Origin: Alkalispirillum mobile
GTDB lineage: Bacteria > Pseudomonadota > Gammaproteobacteria > Nitrococcales > Halorhodospiraceae
NCBI RefSeq assembly: GCF_003664325.1
Contig: NZ_RCDA01000001.1
Span: forward strand, 992,001 to 1,056,000
DNA: 64,000 nucleotides
Direction of reading: 5' to 3'
Numbering within the stretch: the stretch's first letter is position 1; every line of letters starts with the position of its first letter. Below, piece after piece: positions 2,725 to 9,313 of this stretch. The notes beneath the pieces are model-generated. The model worked only from the letters and a program-made list of their open reading frames with translations. It did no database searches and was not told where the DNA came from. Made by a program: the position numbers and the translations under genes.

Positions 2725-3150
2725 CTACGCCTGTTCCCGCACCAGCAGGCCGCGTAACTCTTCCAGCTGCTCGGCGATGGCCAGGATCTCCTCCGGCGGA
2801 AACTGCCGGATCAGCTCCTCGTTCTTCGAGTCGAACACCTTCACCACCGTGCGCCCGGTGTCCTCGTCGATGCTGAACTCCAGGTCGCGCTGGACCACCT
2901 GCACGAACTCATTGATCCGGTCCACTGCATCGCTGACCGATTCACCGGTCGGGTCGCCGGCGGCCCGCGCCTGCTCCGGCCGGGCGGCGTCGAGTGTCGG
3001 GTCCACCGGCCGTGCCGAATCCGGCTGGGGCGGGCGTGACGCGGCCTCGCTCTGGCGGACGCCCTCGCCCGCCGGCGCACCCTGGCTGCCGGTGACCGCC
3101 GGGCGCATGCCCTCGACGTTGGACGTTGTCACGGTGTTGTTGGTATCCAT
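2725..3150 (-). CDS. flaG: FlaG family flagellar protein (copy 1, next to fliD)
   Basis: FlaG proteins influence filament length and sit with flagellin and fliD in many polar flagellar systems; their mechanism is unsettled. This 141-residue product has a low-complexity Pro/Ala/Glu N-terminal half and a conserved C-terminal domain, about residues 70-141 (AVDRINEFVQVVQRDLEFS, then GRTVVKVFD, then PPEEILAIAEQLEELRGLL). The ribosome site AGGAGGGATTAG precedes the ATG. A near-consensus sigma-28 promoter lies just upstream, so this is probably the first gene of flaG-fliD-fliS-fliT. A paralogue lies about 180 bases upstream and is nearly identical over the C-terminal domain. Confidence 0.9.
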   Translation of the reverse strand: MDTNNTVTTSNVEGMRPAVTGSQGAPAGEGVRQSEAASRPPQPDSARPVDPTLDAARPEQARAAGDPTGESVSDAVDRINEFVQVVQRDLEFSIDEDTGRTVVKVFDSKNEELIRQFPPEEILAIAEQLEELRGLLVREQA

Positions 3151-3190
3151 CTAATCCCTCCTGCCACCGGCCGCATGCTCCCTAAAAGAA

Positions 3191-3217
3191 ATATCGGCAG
3201 CATTTAGGAGAACTTTA
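3191..3217 (-). promoter_or_regulatory. Sigma-28 (FliA) promoter for flaG-fliD-fliS-fliT
   Basis: On the minus strand TAAAGTTC, an 11-base spacer and GCCGATAT match the sigma-28 consensus TAAAGTTT-N11-GCCGATAA at 7 of 8 bases in each element. It lies 41 bases upstream of the flaG start, downstream of the terminator that ends the second flaG gene. This places the flaG-fliD-fliS-fliT set in the late flagellar gene class. Confidence 0.88.
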
Positions 3218-3252
3218 GCCCCGCGCGCAATGAAAGCCCACACCCCGGACAG

Positions 3253-3286
3253 AAAAAGGCCCGGAGTGGCATCGCCGCCCCGGGCC
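3253..3286 (-). terminator. Rho-independent terminator after the flagellin A-flaG transcript
   Basis: Read leftward, a GGCCCGG...CCGGGCC hairpin with a further inner GGC/GCC pairing is followed directly by five T residues. It lies between the two flaG genes, just after the stop of copy 2, and separates the flagellin A unit from the fliD unit. Confidence 0.85.
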
Positions 3287-3330
3287 GGAGAAACGCAGAA
3301 ATTGTGAAAACCGACAATCCGGACAGCGCC

Positions 3331-3720
3331 TCAGGCCTGATCCCTCACCAACAGCCCGCGGACCTCGTCGAGTTGCTCCGCGATGGCCAGGATCTCGTCG
3401 GCGGGAAACTGGCGGACCAGCTCCTCGCTGCCGGAGTCGAACACCCGCACCACGGTGCGGCCGGTATCGTCGTGTACGCTGAACTCCAGATCGCGCTGGA
3501 CCACCTGGACAAAGTCGTTGATGCGATCCACGGCGTCGGCGACCTTCTCGGCGTTGCGCTGCGCCTGCTGGGCCGCCTCGGCCGCCCCGCCACCCTGGCG
3601 GGTGCCGGAAACGGCTTCGGCCCCCGAAGGCGCGGGCGAGGCCTTCCCCTGGCTCTCACCCGTCCCCGAGGGCCGTAGCATCTGAACGTTCAGCGTAGAC
3701 ACCTTCATGCTGGTATCCAT
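3331..3720 (-). CDS. flaG: FlaG family flagellar protein (copy 2, next to flagellin A)
   Basis: This 129-residue second FlaG follows flagellin A by 89 bases and starts with a strong ribosome site (GGGGGAGGAGGATCAG before ATG). Its C-terminal domain (AVDRINDFVQVVQRDLEFS, then EILAIAEQLDEVRGLLVRD) is nearly the same as in copy 1, while the N-terminal half differs. It appears to be co-transcribed with flagellin A and is followed by its own terminator. Tandem FlaG copies, one per transcription unit, suggest local duplication. Its role should be as for copy 1, in filament length or assembly; specialisation for one flagellin is possible but not shown. Confidence 0.9.
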   Translation of the reverse strand: MDTSMKVSTLNVQMLRPSGTGESQGKASPAPSGAEAVSGTRQGGGAAEAAQQAQRNAEKVADAVDRINDFVQVVQRDLEFSVHDDTGRTVVRVFDSGSEELVRQFPADEILAIAEQLDEVRGLLVRDQA

Positions 3721-3809: not shown

Positions 3810-5051
3810 TTACTGGAGCAGGCCCAGCACGTTGTTCGGGATCTGGTTGGCCTGCGCCAGGACGGAGGTACCAGCCTGCTGCAGGATCTGACCCCGGGTC
3901 AGGGCCGCGGTCTCGGCCGCGAAGTCAGCGTCTACGATGCGGCTGCGGGAAGCCTCCAAGTTTTCCGAGGTGACATTCAGGTTCGCCACCGTGGACTCGA
4001 ACCGGTTCTGCACCGCACCGAGGTCGGCTCGCAAGCTGTTGATCTGGTCCAATGCCCCGTCGGCGATGGCGATCGCCTCGCTTGCGCCATTCCGGGTACC
4101 AATATCAACGTCAGTTAGATTGCGTTGCTCTGCCTCAACTCCGGTCTCACCGTTGAACACATCAATCGTGTCTTCACCTTCCAAGGTGATTTCGCCGCCC
4201 TCAACCTCGAATTCAGCAGCGAAGGCACCACGAATGGAAACAGTCGTTTCCGTGCCGTCCTCCCCATCAATGGTAGTCAAAGCTGCACTCAGACCCGCAC
4301 TCCTGACAGCCTGCGTCTCTTCCTCAGTCTCTCCTTCAAAGGATGCGATTGCGCTGTTGATCTCGCGGACCATGCCCTCTAGTGAAGTAACGTCTTCACC
4401 GAAATCAACTTCAATTTCAATACCCTCACCAACGTCAAAGCCCTCCAGATCGGTCAGTTCGATAGTGACTTCGCCAATCCCATCGATGCCCTCACTGATC
4501 TGATCCTGAGTCAGACCCGCTTCACCCTCAGCGATCGAACGCCCAAGTTCGGCGGACCTCGCATCCACACCATCTACTGCGATGGTCTGACCCTGATTGG
4601 CGCCGACCTGGAAGAAAAGATCACTCAGGGCTCCATCGAGCACTGTCTGATCGTTAAACTCGGTAGACTCAGCAATACGACCGGCCTCGTCCACCAGCTG
4701 TTCAACCTCCTGATTCAGCGCAGCACGATCGGACGCCGAGTTACTGTCGTTGGCGGACTGAACGGCCAGCTCGCGGACACGCTGTGCGATGTTGCCGATC
4801 TCCTCAAGCGCACCCTCGGCGGTCTGTGCCAGGGAGACGCCGTCGTTGGCGTTACGTGCTGCCTGGTTGTTGCCGTTGATCTGCGCGGTGAAGCGCTCGG
4901 AAATCGCCAGCCCTGCCGCGTCGTCCTTGGCGCTGTTGATCCGCAGGCCCGAGGACAGGCGCTCCAGAGACACGTTCAGCTGGCTCTGGGAGCTGTTGAG
5001 GTTCCTCTGGGCGTTCAGGGAGGCAATATTCGTGTTGATTACCTGTGACAT
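3810..5051 (-). CDS. fliC: Flagellin A
   Basis: This is a filament subunit exported through the flagellar type III apparatus. The 413-residue protein begins MSQVINTNIASLNAQRN and carries the conserved D0/D1 helices (SLERLSSGLRINSAKDDAAG) over about residues 1-140. Residues about 165-320 form a variable, strongly acidic central domain with little similarity to ordinary flagellins. The C-terminal D1/D0 ends QQAGTSVLAQANQIPNNVLG. The open frame extends 54 codons upstream, but the ATG at 5051 has AAGGAG at good spacing and starts at the flagellin consensus. Its ends closely resemble flagellin B, located beyond the ligase gene. A sigma-28 promoter lies about 100 bases upstream, and flaG copy 2 follows. 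Confidence 0.96.
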   Translation of the reverse strand: MSQVINTNIASLNAQRNLNSSQSQLNVSLERLSSGLRINSAKDDAAGLAISERFTAQINGNNQAARNANDGVSLAQTAEGALEEIGNIAQRVRELAVQSANDSNSASDRAALNQEVEQLVDEAGRIAESTEFNDQTVLDGALSDLFFQVGANQGQTIAVDGVDARSAELGRSIAEGEAGLTQDQISEGIDGIGEVTIELTDLEGFDVGEGIEIEVDFGEDVTSLEGMVREINSAIASFEGETEEETQAVRSAGLSAALTTIDGEDGTETTVSIRGAFAAEFEVEGGEITLEGEDTIDVFNGETGVEAEQRNLTDVDIGTRNGASEAIAIADGALDQINSLRADLGAVQNRFESTVANLNVTSENLEASRSRIVDADFAAETAALTRGQILQQAGTSVLAQANQIPNNVLGLLQ

Positions 5052-5149
5052 GACTCTTCTCCTTACCGCTTTCCGGGTTCGGCGAGGAACCCCTGGGTTT
5101 GTTTCCGGTGGGAGGCGCGGTGTTGCCGCTTTTCCTCCCTGCGCCCCCT

Positions 5150-5176
5150 GTAACGACCCATGAGCGGCAAACTTTA
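5150..5176 (-). promoter_or_regulatory. Probable sigma-28 promoter of flagellin A
   Basis: The minus strand shows a perfect TAAAGTTT -35 element, an 11-base spacer and GTCGTTAC, which matches GCCGATAA at five of eight positions. It would give a leader of roughly 90 bases before the flagellin A start. The strong -35 and exact spacing support it despite the weaker -10. Confidence 0.65.
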
Positions 5177-5306
5177 GGCCTGACCGGAAATTTTTTTCCG
5201 CCTGGCGGCACAAGCAAAGAGAAGAATCAAAACAATCGAATAGTCAGTAGGTTAAGGTCACACCACACATGCAGATGCACCCGGTCTCAACACAACCTCC
5301 TGCTGT

Positions 5307-7460
5307 TCAGGCTTCAGCCAACACATCCACAGGCTGACCCATGCCAACAGACACCGCCACGGCAAAGGCCACGGCCTTCCGGTCCAATCCTCCAACCTCC
5401 GCATCTCCGTTAGTCAGGTGCGCAGCCAAGCGAAGATGCTGAGTGCCCTTTTCTGTTACTACACGCATCGCGTCATCGCCATTGCTCCCCCAAACGACCG
5501 CCTTATCGCTTGGACGAAGCAGCGCGGTGTCGAAATTGGAGCCTGTGGACACCCAGATCACCGGCAAGCTGGAAACCTGCCGTACCAGGGCAACGCAGGC
5601 AGCATCGTCAGCGTTGGCGACAACACCACCAGTGGCCCGGGCAACGGCCTGGGCCCGAAGCAGCATTCGTTGATCCGACGACAGCCCTTGGCTGTCGCCC
5701 CCCTCGTTCAAGTCTGTAATTACGACCCACTGGTAGTAATCGCAGGGATGGCCTTGAGCCAATAGCGTCGGGTCAGGCAGTGCGAATACAGCCCGGGTCA
5801 CCGTGGGGTCAGATAGAATCATCCGAGCGCGCTTGAATGGGTCCGCGCCAGTACCGCCTACCGACTCAACGCCCACGCGAGCCTCCGCCTCACTTGCCAG
5901 CCCGCATACGTGGTTTTCCGCACCGAGTAGAACGTGGGCAATGGCCGCCACATGAGTACGACGGTCACCACCGACCACCGCTGCGACAGGGATCCTAAGG
6001 TCCTCGCCTTGGAGGAGGTAATTCAATATTTCTCCGCTGACATCGTGATCCGGAGTCCCCAACCAGTGTGGTCTCAATCCCGGTTGCGCGTTGACCTCAC
6101 AAATTACGCCACCGACTTCTCGCCACGAGCGATGGGCGTCCGGACAAATCAAATCTATTCCAGCGATATCGAGTCCGATAATCCGAGCGGCTCGCTCTGC
6201 CAGCCGAACGTTATCCGGGTGAATCGCGCTGGTCAGGTCTTCCGCTGTCCCACCTGTGCTGATGTTCGCGGTTCGCCGTAGCCAGACTGTATCCCCTTCA
6301 GCAGGCACCGATTCGAGAGAAAGCCCTTGTTCATTCAACATCGCTTCGGCTTCATCATCGATCTTCACTTGCACCAGCATGCTCTTTCCATCCCCACGGC
6401 GGGGATCTGCATTCAAAGACCGCACAAGCTTTCCGATCGACGAATGGCCGTCCCCGACCACATGAGCCGGCACCCGCTTAGTGGCGACGCGTACTCTCCC
6501 ACCAACGACGAGTAGACGGTGGTCTTCGCCCGAAACATGCTTCTCCAAAAGGACCCCTTGAGGGCTATAACTAGCCGCACTTGAAAAGGCCTGCCGCAAG
6601 GTCTGCACGTCACGAATGCCAGGCACCACACCCACGCCTTGATCCTGATTCCCTGGCTTCACTACCACGGGCCAACCGAATCGCTCAGCCATGGCCTGAG
6701 CCTCTTTTTCAGTTCGGACCATGACCGCTGGAGCCACTGGGATGCCTGCGTCGGCGAGGATCTGTGATGCCCGGAATTTGTGCCGAGCCAAGCGTGTAGC
6801 GATGACACTGGTCTCATGACCAAAGGTTGATTCCATCCGTTTTCCATTCGCCCCCCAACCTAGACGCAACAACTGCCCACCTGCACGACGCACTGGCACG
6901 CCCCGCTCCATCGCGGCGCGGGCGAAACGCAGATTGGTGGGGTGCAGTCCGCCACTTTGCGCCGAGTTTACCCACTGAGCCACCTTCTTCTGCAGGTCAG
7001 GCAGACCGCTGTTGCCCGGGGACAGTGAAATCCCCAGGTACTGAACGGCCAGTTTCAAGGCGTCACTGGCGATATTCTGACGCTCCCAAGGCAGCACGAG
7101 TTCAAGCACCGACTCATCCTTCTTCGCCAGTCCACCGGCACCGACGGGGTCTCTGGCAATGCGCTGCAGTGCGATCTGGAACGCCACCAACCAGGCTGCG
7201 AACTGCTCCCGCGAGTCATCGGAGGGCGTGTTCAGCAAGAAAGCTCCCGGCCAGTCCTCCGGTTCAACGTTGTAGAGTGGCTCTGCTTCCCATAGGTGGC
7301 GCGCCATCGCCCGCAGCCGACCCTCCGCGTCCGGCCAGCGTTTGATGGGCTGCGGTAATTTCAAATCTACCGTAAGGGTTGGCCCCAACAGGCCCTCTCT
7401 TGCCCCGTCGGTAAACCTAAGGTTCTCGAACTTGACGTTGATCGCGTTCTTCTTGGCCAT
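5307..7460 (-). CDS. Cyanophycin-synthetase-like ATP-grasp ligase located between flagellin genes
   Basis: This 717-residue protein resembles cyanophycin synthetase (CphA) in architecture. An N-terminal domain (about 1-200) leads into the CphA ATP-grasp core (about 200-485), with QLLRLGWGANGKR, PVVVKPGNQDQGVGV, RVPAHVVGDGHSSIGKLV, ANISTGGTAEDLTSAIHPDN, GLDIAGIDL and ICEVNAQPGL. The C-terminal part (about 487-717) sits where CphA has its Mur-ligase domain, but the expected P-loop GTNGKTT reads GGDRRTH at 497-503, so that site is probably dead. CphA2 enzymes also lack this site. The ATP-grasp core should still make an ATP-dependent amide bond, perhaps adding an acidic or dipeptide residue. The start at MAKKN has GGAGAGG 11 bases upstream; an 18-codon TTG-started extension is less likely. 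No cyanophycinase is nearby, and the genes on both sides are flagellins. The substrate is unknown. Confidence 0.85.
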   Translation of the reverse strand: MAKKNAINVKFENLRFTDGAREGLLGPTLTVDLKLPQPIKRWPDAEGRLRAMARHLWEAEPLYNVEPEDWPGAFLLNTPSDDSREQFAAWLVAFQIALQRIARDPVGAGGLAKKDESVLELVLPWERQNIASDALKLAVQYLGISLSPGNSGLPDLQKKVAQWVNSAQSGGLHPTNLRFARAAMERGVPVRRAGGQLLRLGWGANGKRMESTFGHETSVIATRLARHKFRASQILADAGIPVAPAVMVRTEKEAQAMAERFGWPVVVKPGNQDQGVGVVPGIRDVQTLRQAFSSAASYSPQGVLLEKHVSGEDHRLLVVGGRVRVATKRVPAHVVGDGHSSIGKLVRSLNADPRRGDGKSMLVQVKIDDEAEAMLNEQGLSLESVPAEGDTVWLRRTANISTGGTAEDLTSAIHPDNVRLAERAARIIGLDIAGIDLICPDAHRSWREVGGVICEVNAQPGLRPHWLGTPDHDVSGEILNYLLQGEDLRIPVAAVVGGDRRTHVAAIAHVLLGAENHVCGLASEAEARVGVESVGGTGADPFKRARMILSDPTVTRAVFALPDPTLLAQGHPCDYYQWVVITDLNEGGDSQGLSSDQRMLLRAQAVARATGGVVANADDAACVALVRQVSSLPVIWVSTGSNFDTALLRPSDKAVVWGSNGDDAMRVVTEKGTQHLRLAAHLTNGDAEVGGLDRKAVAFAVAVSVGMGQPVDVLAEA

Positions 7461-7479
7461 TGCAGAACATGCCTCTCCG

Positions 7480-7501
7480 CTGACAGATCGTTGACTGTCA
7501 G
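7480..7501. other. Perfect inverted repeat upstream of the ligase gene
   Basis: CTGACAG and CTGTCAG form a perfect 7-base inverted repeat separated by 8 bases, ending about 20 bases before the ligase start at 7460. It could be an operator or a leader hairpin controlling the ligase separately from flagellin B. No T run follows, so it is not a terminator. Confidence 0.5.
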
Positions 7502-7566
7502 CGACATCTTGCAATGATTGCGCCAGCTGGAGTCTTGCGGATGGATAGATATCTGGCCCCGATACA

Positions 7567-7600
7567 GAAAAGGCCCGGGGAGGCTGACGCCACCCGGGCC
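7567..7600 (-). terminator. Rho-independent terminator after flagellin B
   Basis: Read leftward, GGCCCGGG and CCCGGGCC form an 8-base GC stem followed by TTTT. It stands about 35 bases after the flagellin B stop, so the ligase would depend on read-through or on its own promoter between 7460 and 7567. Confidence 0.8.
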
Positions 7601-7636
7601 AAGTACTGCCGCTTGAGGTTCGGTCTGGCTGTTCGA

Positions 7637-8869
7637 TTACTGCAGCAGGTTGAGCACGTTATTGGGGATCTGGTTGGCCTGCGAGAGGACGGAGGTGCCG
7701 GCCTGCTGCAGGATCTGACCCCTGGTCAGTGCTGCGGTCTCAGAAGCAAAGTCTGCATCCATGATCCGGGACCGGGAGGCGCTGAGGTTTTCCGAGGTGA
7801 TGCTGAGGTTAGCCACGGTTGCCTCGAAACGGTTCTGAACTGCACCGAGGTCTGCCCGGATACCACTCACCTGCTCCAACGCCCCATCCACGACTGCAAT
7901 GGTTTCATTGGCTCCACCTCGTGTGGCGACGTCGATTTCGGTCAGGTTTTTATTGACCGCATCTTCCCCGTCTCCAAATAATTCAACGGTTGTGTCCTCG
8001 CCATCCGCTAGTGTGATTTCCCCGCCTTCAACGCTGAAGTCGGAATCAAACGCCCCCCTGACCACAACAGTGCTTTCACCCGCATCATTTGTAGAGACGG
8101 CCGCGCTCAGTCCCGCATTACGAACCGCCTGAACCTGATCCGCAGCGTCGTCACCTTCTCCCGCGAAGTTTGTGATAGCGCTATTGATTTCCCGCACCAA
8201 ATCCTCGAGTGAGGTAACCTCACCTAGTTCATCATCCCCCAGTTCGATGGGAATTGCGTCATCTCCCTCACCTAGGGCAATGGTAATTTCTCCCACAGAT
8301 TCGATGCCTTCCGCGATGTCATCCTGAGTCAACCCCTCCTCACCTTGAACCAGGGCTCGCCCCAATTCTGTGCTCCTCGCGTCGACACCAGAGACCGCGA
8401 TGGTCTGACCTTGGTTGGCCCCAACCTGGAAGAAGAGGTCCCGCAACGTCCCATCCAGGATATTCTGGTCGTTGAACTGCGTATCTCGCGCAATTCGACC
8501 GATCTCGTCAATCGCTTGCTGAACCTCCTGATCCAGTGCTTCACGATCCGACGCAGAGTTGGTGTCGTTCGCTGACTGAACCGCAAGTTCGCGGACTCTT
8601 TGTAGCAGGTTACCTGCCTCATCCAACGCGCCCTCTGCAGTCTGGGCGTAACTGATCCCGTCATTCGAGTTACGTGCCGCCTGGTCCAGCCCGTTGATCT
8701 GCGAAGTAAACCGCTCGCTGATCGCCAGCCCCGCCGCATCATCCTTCGCGCTGTTGATCCGCAGCCCCGAGCTCAGGCGCTCTAGGGAGATGTTCAACTG
8801 CCCCTGGCTGGCGTTTAGATTCCGCTGGGCGTTCAGTGAAGCAATGTTGGTGTTGATGACCTGTGCCAT
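7637..8869 (-). CDS. fliC: Flagellin B
   Basis: This second flagellin has 410 residues, starting MAQVINTNIASLNAQRN. Its D0/D1 ends are nearly the same as flagellin A (SLERLSSGLRINSAKDDAAG; QQAGTSVLSQANQIPNNVLN), while the central domain (about 165-315) is acidic but diverged. The frame opens three codons earlier at a GTG; the ATG at 8869 has GAGGGG at suitable spacing and is preferred. Unlike flagellin A, I can find no convincing sigma-28 -35 element upstream; only a GCCGAAAA resembling the -10 is visible near 8998-9005. A terminator follows. It may be the minor or differently regulated subunit. Confidence 0.95.
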   Translation of the reverse strand: MAQVINTNIASLNAQRNLNASQGQLNISLERLSSGLRINSAKDDAAGLAISERFTSQINGLDQAARNSNDGISYAQTAEGALDEAGNLLQRVRELAVQSANDTNSASDREALDQEVQQAIDEIGRIARDTQFNDQNILDGTLRDLFFQVGANQGQTIAVSGVDARSTELGRALVQGEEGLTQDDIAEGIESVGEITIALGEGDDAIPIELGDDELGEVTSLEDLVREINSAITNFAGEGDDAADQVQAVRNAGLSAAVSTNDAGESTVVVRGAFDSDFSVEGGEITLADGEDTTVELFGDGEDAVNKNLTEIDVATRGGANETIAVVDGALEQVSGIRADLGAVQNRFEATVANLSITSENLSASRSRIMDADFASETAALTRGQILQQAGTSVLSQANQIPNNVLNLLQ

Positions 8870-9313
8870 GACGTTCACCCCTCAAGCATTGTCTGCGGCT
8901 GTGCCGCTTGTTTTCGGGTTCTGGACTCGCCGGTGGCGGCCCGACCTCTGTGCACCCAGGCTAACGGCGCAGTGCGGGAGTGCTTGATTGGGGGTGGTTT
9001 TTCGGCAAAAAGCGGCAAGCAGAGACCACTTTGGCGGGAAAAGCGGCAAGGGGTTGCCTGTTTTCCCTGTTGGGGTGCCTGGCGCAATGCCAATTGGGAG
9101 CTTTCTGTGACTGGAGGCTGGGCCGGGCATGTGGATTGCTTCGCTTTGCTCGCAATGACTGGGGGTGGGCCGTGCTCTATTGGCTCCCCTCGGTGCGGCA
9201 ATCTGCCCTGCCACGCCACTCGAAACCTTGCGCCAGATCAGCGTCCTGTCCCCAACCTTCTGGCATACTCGGAAATGAATACTTTTATACAAACCTTGCG
9301 GGGAAGTGACCTG
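8870..9313. other. Divergent intergenic region between flagellin B and korA
   Basis: These 444 bases lie between two divergently read genes. They hold the leader of flagellin B, two direct copies of AAAAGCGGCAAG at 9008-9019 and 9039-9050 (31-base period), and a dispersed-repeat-like element at 9132-9159. Open frames across it have no coding likeness. No strong promoter for either gene could be read with confidence. Confidence 0.6.
9132..9159 (-). repeat. Dispersed repetitive element of the GTCATTGCGAG...GCAATCC type
   Basis: The minus strand reads GTCATTGCGAGCAAAGCGAA followed by GCAATCCA. This closely resembles a short intergenic repeat found in many unrelated bacterial genomes, whose chance translation yields strings such as HCEQSEAIH. 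Only one copy is in this window, so the repeat status rests on resemblance. Confidence 0.5.

Follow-up and report, generated by a model that had tools for sequence, protein, structure and literature searches.

A CphA-like ligase encoded between two flagellin genes of Alkalispirillum mobile and its possible role in flagellin modification

Analysis of a 64,000-nucleotide stretch of the Alkalispirillum mobile genome (the window) revealed a CphA-like ligase of 717 aa (P0001; positions 5307–7460, minus strand) encoded between two flagellin genes. Judged from its sequence, the protein belongs to the CphA family yet is not a cyanophycin synthetase. We regard it as somewhat probable that it is a flagellin-modification ligase recruited from this family, which would attach an aspartate-like residue to a carboxylate borne by flagellin or by a flagellin glycan. 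This reading is based on where the gene lies, on the state of its domains and the residues they conserve, on its place in the tree and on a relative, fused to TPR repeats, that lies in another flagellar cluster.

The ligase gene and its flagellar neighbourhood

The open reading frame starts with an ATG at 7460 and its stop codon ends at 5307, on the minus strand, as is the case for the other genes of the block; an alternative TTG start is found at 7514. The sequence-only reading had placed the gene between two flagellin paralogues, and this holds: the ORF is real and both neighbours are full-length flagellins (Pfam E-values of 1e-45 to 1e-46), fliC upstream (410 aa; 7637–8869) and a flagellin gene downstream (413 aa; 3810–5051), whose product is 73% identical to the former. 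These are followed by two FlaG paralogues identified through Pfam (3331–3720 and 2725–3150), the filament cap FliD (1227–2678; N-terminal start uncertain) and the flagellin chaperone FliS (707–1144), the last two recognized as ORFs with tblastn matches in the flagellar clusters of relatives. In the order fliC, ligase, fliC, flaG, flaG, fliD, fliS, the ligase is the sole non-structural gene. Further downstream, beyond the window, are ORFs that we take, on reading by eye, to be flagellar regulators, fliE, fliF, fliG, fliH, fliI and fliJ, and the block is presumably the downstream end of a flagellar cluster of the fleQ/fliE/fliF/fliG type (ORF names again read by eye). The central regions of the flagellins are very acidic, with 22–24% Asp and Glu and 4% Lys and Arg.

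A motif scan located sigma-28-like sites with one mismatch before the upstream (8962–8987, minus strand) and the downstream (5151–5176, minus strand) flagellin genes, and such sites also precede one flaG and fliS. The downstream of the two adjacent flaG paralogues (2725–3720) has a perfect sigma-28-like site at 3192–3217. No site with up to two mismatches was found directly before the ligase gene, and folding predicts an intrinsic terminator between it and the upstream flagellin gene (7568–7600, minus strand; the region 7556–7640 folds at −33.9 kcal/mol, with a GC stem followed by TTTT). Our guess would be that the ligase is expressed through read-through of this predicted terminator. A REP-like palindromic element, CATTGCGAGCAAAGCGAAGCAATC, is present once in the window, at 9134–9157 upstream of the first flagellin gene.

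The fliC–ligase–fliC block (3810–8878) has a GC3 of 0.62–0.66, versus a median of 0.87 for 119 sampled ORFs (window plus ∼120 kb of genome samples) and 0.87–0.89 for flaG, fliD and fliS. The low GC3 suggests a transfer of the three genes as one cassette, with the caveat that flagellins can have a codon bias of their own. In the other genomes of the family and in genome G039, tandem flagellin genes are directly adjacent, separated by gaps of ∼200–430 bp with no ligase between them; it therefore appears that the ligase was gained, or the block imported, in the source lineage.

Family assignment and state of the active sites

The ligase matched the Pfam RimK/ATP-grasp domain (E 2e-15) and the NCBIfam cyanophycin synthetase model NF010623 (E 2e-126), although its score of 423 bits is below the cut-off of 877; the 390 bits obtained with TIGR02068 likewise fall short of the cut-off of 850 bits. 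Among the PDB entries, 7lgm was matched at E 3e-88. The AlphaFold model, calculated from 34 aligned sequences, has a mean pLDDT of 87, and its first-ranking structural matches are CphA1 (7wae and 7wac), which is expected for a model whose alignment is made of CphA homologues; CphA2 (7ta5) was matched as well. Two other identities were considered and rejected, NAGGN synthetase (TIGR03103; 169.7 bits, cut-off 569 bits) and the RimK protein ligase (TIGR00768; 69 bits, cut-off 143.4); in the latter case the match is limited to the broad Pfam domain for the RimK-type ATP-grasp fold.

Residues of TeCphA1, with roles taken from the literature (PMC9427784, PMC9262961), were mapped onto the ligase through an HMMER alignment and the 34-sequence alignment. 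The N-terminal domain (residues 1–164; 6969–7460, minus strand) is clade-specific, and the alignment showed it to be devoid of the HxxEH metallopeptidase motif, the primer-cutting site that makes primers and is reported in ∼80% of CphA1 proteins (PMC9262961). The ATP-grasp G domain (residues 165–490; 5991–6968, minus strand) retains the phosphate-binding K220 and K261, the Mg ligands D431 and E450, the aspartate-binding R323, N394, S396 and R458 (roles from PMC9427784), and R309. Two replacements were identified, E215 by R223 and H267 by Q274, both at the primer end of the G site, where E215 of TeCphA1 holds the arginine side chain (PMC9427784). Q274 is not diagnostic of a new reaction, because where CphA and CphA' occur as a tandem pair, the CphA protein likewise has Gln in place of H267. 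In the remaining part of the protein, the remnant of the Mur-like M core (residues 491–717; 5310–5990, minus strand), the P-loop GTNGKTT has become GGDRRTH (including G498R and K499R), E558 and H586 are replaced by A560 and S590, respectively, and the lid is deleted. These losses leave the Mur half as a structural remnant with a dead site, so the ligase no longer adds arginine. One usable site is kept, and the reaction predicted for it is the attachment of an Asp-like amino acid to a carboxylate; we infer the Asp-like nucleophile from the conservation of the G-site residues.

The 'complete' ATP-grasp core of cyanophycin-synthetase type in the sequence-only reading thus applies to the ATP-grasp half, whose site is intact apart from E215R and H267Q, but not to the Mur half, which is truncated and has lost its catalytic residues. 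Its statement that no cyanophycinase is present proved right, as a genome-wide search with PF03575 for an S51 cyanophycinase gave no match, whereas 10 of 14 control genomes were positive. Plain cyanophycin storage is rejected on the dead Mur site, the missing HxxEH motif, the absent cyanophycinase and a tree position outside the canonical CphAs, in agreement with the earlier view that storage does not explain the gene.

The ligase appears to share with CphA1 (7wac, 7lg5, 7lgm) the fold of the N, G and M-core domains, as modelled, and the ATP-, Mg- and aspartate-binding residues of the G site. Unlike CphA1, it has a dead Mur site, no lid, no HxxEH motif and the E215R and H267Q changes; it also scores below the NCBIfam cut-off, falls outside the canonical clade and is encoded in a genome without cyanophycinase. 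With CphA2 (7ta5, 8fxh) it has in common the single retained ATP-grasp site and the truncated M domain, but its G domain scores 254 bits against CphA1 and only 176 bits against CphA2, which branches elsewhere in the tree. The loss of the M site is apparently independent of that in CphA2.

Relatives of the ligase and a probable link to flagella

An order-level search of 54 genomes, with a threshold of E 1e-60, found matches to the ligase in four, the source genome included. Its closest relative in the order is that of Alkalilimnicola ehrlichii AK92 (41% identity, E 1e-147), a member of another family; the gene lies in a flagellar cluster, with flgL to one side and fliC to the other. The protein is fused to ∼300 residues with TPR repeats, a domain that the window ligase does not have, and the gene is adjoined by genes for an NTP-transferase, LicD and a class-V aminotransferase. 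In the AK92 contig (L016:5644-8260) the NTP transferase, LicD and PhnW-like aminotransferase genes lie between the ligase and fliC; they possibly encode a phospho-linked flagellin decoration pathway. A third member, as close to the ligase as that of AK92, is from an uncultured proteobacterium (L022), and its neighbours are presumably glmS, glmU and gltBD (ORFs read by eye). Searching the L022 genome for flagellin, a search run without a positive control, gave no match.

The three proteins come out as one clade in both maximum-likelihood trees calculated for the G domain (support 99/92 and 98/94), within which the ligase is nearest to the AK92 homologue (98/91 and 95/79). The clade stands apart from the canonical CphA1, CphA and CphA' sequences, with CphA2 placed elsewhere on a long branch; support for its deeper grouping with the short ligases linked to methyltransferases differs between the trees, being low in the first (78/32) and high in the second (100/98). 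The Mur site is intact in both the AK92 and L022 proteins, and since these full-length relatives have the same divergent N domain as the ligase, the clade diverged before the Mur half of the latter was lost. No further members were detected in ∼1,500 other genomes sampled from the order, class and phylum of the source and from the order and class of the third member (draws may overlap), among viral contigs or, at close level, among plasmids.

CphA-like ligases outside the clade were also noted. Short ones (606–756 aa) at L017:7680-11160, L068:1752-9947, L104:9211-11934 and L018:8621-15640 have no Mur P-loop and a changed aspartate-binding R458, with a methyltransferase-like ORF near each; the L017 ligase adjoins a 1669-aa RTX/S-layer-like ORF. 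At L024:8993-19755, three CphA-like matches are located within one biosynthetic-looking betaproteobacterial cluster.

A CphA-type ligase is thus encoded with flagellins in two families of one order, in two cases only, the window and AK92. The window copy was chosen for lying beside flagellins, so only the AK92 copy is an independent observation; we estimate the chance of hitting a ∼30 kb flagellar cluster in a 4.8-Mb genome at ∼1%. When ∼40 CphA-family loci with their flanks were probed with flagellar proteins, flagellar genes were found only at the AK92 locus. Relatives lying mostly away from flagellar loci, the outcome of a synteny scan that the sequence-only reading had named as adverse, is what canonical CphAs display, but not the AK92 homologue. 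With two loci as evidence, support for a link between the ligase and flagella is moderate. Nor is the clade exclusively flagellar: of its three members, one is from a genome that yielded no flagellin match.

The position next to flagellin is occupied by other enzymes elsewhere in the order. TPR-sulfotransferases, candidate enzymes of flagellin sulfation, are encoded beside flagellin in four other genomes (L080:4964-6712, L091:5983-7737, L082:5303-7456 and L088:5287-7389), and this slot therefore seems to house modification enzymes of varying kinds. A search of the literature for flagellin-adjacent TPR-sulfotransferase fusions returned no paper. In a domain-swap test, the TPR repeats of the AK92 homologue displayed only weak, generic TPR similarity to those of the sulfotransferases.

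Possible function of the ligase

Amino-acid ligation in flagellin decoration is known in outline from two systems. In C. difficile, the terminal peptidyl-amido sugar of flagellin depends on CDR20291_0245, an ATP-grasp gene of the type B flagellin locus (PMC5207246; PMC5207245), and loss of the ATP-grasp domain protein SfmE in Shewanella shifts the mass of flagellin (PMC3765264). These are ATP-grasp ligases encoded in flagellin-modification loci, as the ligase described here putatively is, and their mutants are altered in flagellin mass or glycan; they differ in belonging, according to the papers, to other ATP-grasp families (Pfam 13535; ATP-grasp_4), in being surrounded by glycan genes and in not being of the CphA type. 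The 'new filament modification' of the sequence-only reading was therefore too strong a claim (PMC5207246, PMC3765264), and what would be added to the known flagellin-modifying ATP-grasp ligases is the CphA type. No CphA-type enzyme in flagellin modification was found in the open-licence literature, nor any paper there combining 'flagellin', 'ATP-grasp' and 'cyanophycin synthetase'. A rationale for the TPR repeats of the AK92 protein comes from Caulobacter FlmG, which uses such repeats to bind flagellin (PMC7591256); like the AK92 relative, FlmG combines TPR repeats with a catalytic domain and is linked to flagellin, but it is a glycosyltransferase rather than a ligase, and the window ligase itself has no such repeats.

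For the amino-acid or peptide ligase acting on flagellin, FlaG or a surface polymer, as proposed by the sequence-only reading, the flagellar link is supported by the AK92 cluster, the TPR fusion and the TPR-sulfotransferase slot. The acceptor would most likely be a carboxylate carried by flagellin, belonging either to a side chain (Glu or Asp) or to an acidic sugar attached to the protein. Phosphorylation of this carboxylate by the ATP-grasp domain would be followed by its linkage to Asp, or to a similar amino acid, via the amino group; the reaction would take place in the cytoplasm, ahead of flagellin export. Flagellin or its glycan as acceptor, Asp as the added residue and action before export are what we infer. 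The flagellar block was found to contain no glycosyltransferase, and PF01973 had no match in the genome; a glycan acceptor would therefore depend on genes located elsewhere, and a protein acceptor is somewhat likelier here.

Flagellin modification is the best single reading. Counting against it are the small and not wholly flagellar clade, the lack of TPR repeats in the window ligase, the missing sigma-28-like site and the predicted terminator ahead of its gene, and the two changes at the primer end of the G site. Ranking next, and in our view improbable yet deserving weight, is that the product of the ligase is a small soluble compound, either a peptide or an amino-acid conjugate (an osmolyte or metabolite, for instance), and that the gene lies where it does incidentally, having arrived with a transferred flagellin cassette. 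The uniformly low GC3 of the three genes (0.62–0.66 vs 0.87) fits such a transferred block, divergent CphA-like ligases outside the clade occur in biosynthetic-type clusters with methyltransferases, and the genome of the third clade member gave no flagellin match. NAGGN synthetase is moreover a distant relative, but at 170 bits against a cut-off of 569, and an incidental position sits poorly with the AK92 relative, given its independent occurrence among flagellar genes and its TPR fusion. The same AK92 locus, with its LicD, nucleotidyltransferase and aminotransferase genes, could also indicate that the ligase modifies LPS, capsule or another shared polymer or glycan of the surface instead of flagellin or its specific decoration, and the more distant L017 ligase adjoins the large RTX or S-layer-like ORF. 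Such genes are absent from the flagellar block of the window, and with no PF01973 protein in the genome we consider this alternative doubtful.

The dead and truncated Mur half and the lost N-domain motif would also be compatible with a decaying, inactive relic of a cyanophycin synthetase. The frame is, however, intact, the fold is confidently predicted and all but two of the G-site residues are retained; the divergent N domain is common to two full-length relatives, in a clade older than the loss of the Mur half. We therefore hold a relic to be very unlikely. Polymerisation of dipeptides in the manner of cyanobacterial CphA2, to which the layout of one G site with a truncated M domain and the match to 7ta5 would point, is the least probable of all, given the higher score of the G domain against CphA1 (254 vs 176 bits) and the distant, long-branched position of CphA2.

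Beyond the flagellin-modification reading of the window ligase, it is conceivable, though rather unlikely, that a CphA-derived class puts amino acids directly on flagellin, the full-length relatives such as that of AK92 adding a branched Asp-Arg-like peptide and the TPR repeats choosing the target. If so, the filament would be decorated with peptides through protein-primed chemistry of the cyanophycin type.

Flagellin decoration is mostly known as glycosylation. If a CphA-type ligase modifies flagellin, a storage-polymer synthetase would have been turned into a modifying enzyme, by a route in which the arginine site was lost in the window ligase and TPR repeats were gained in that of AK92, and amino-acid ligation by the CphA family would join the means by which bacteria alter their filaments.
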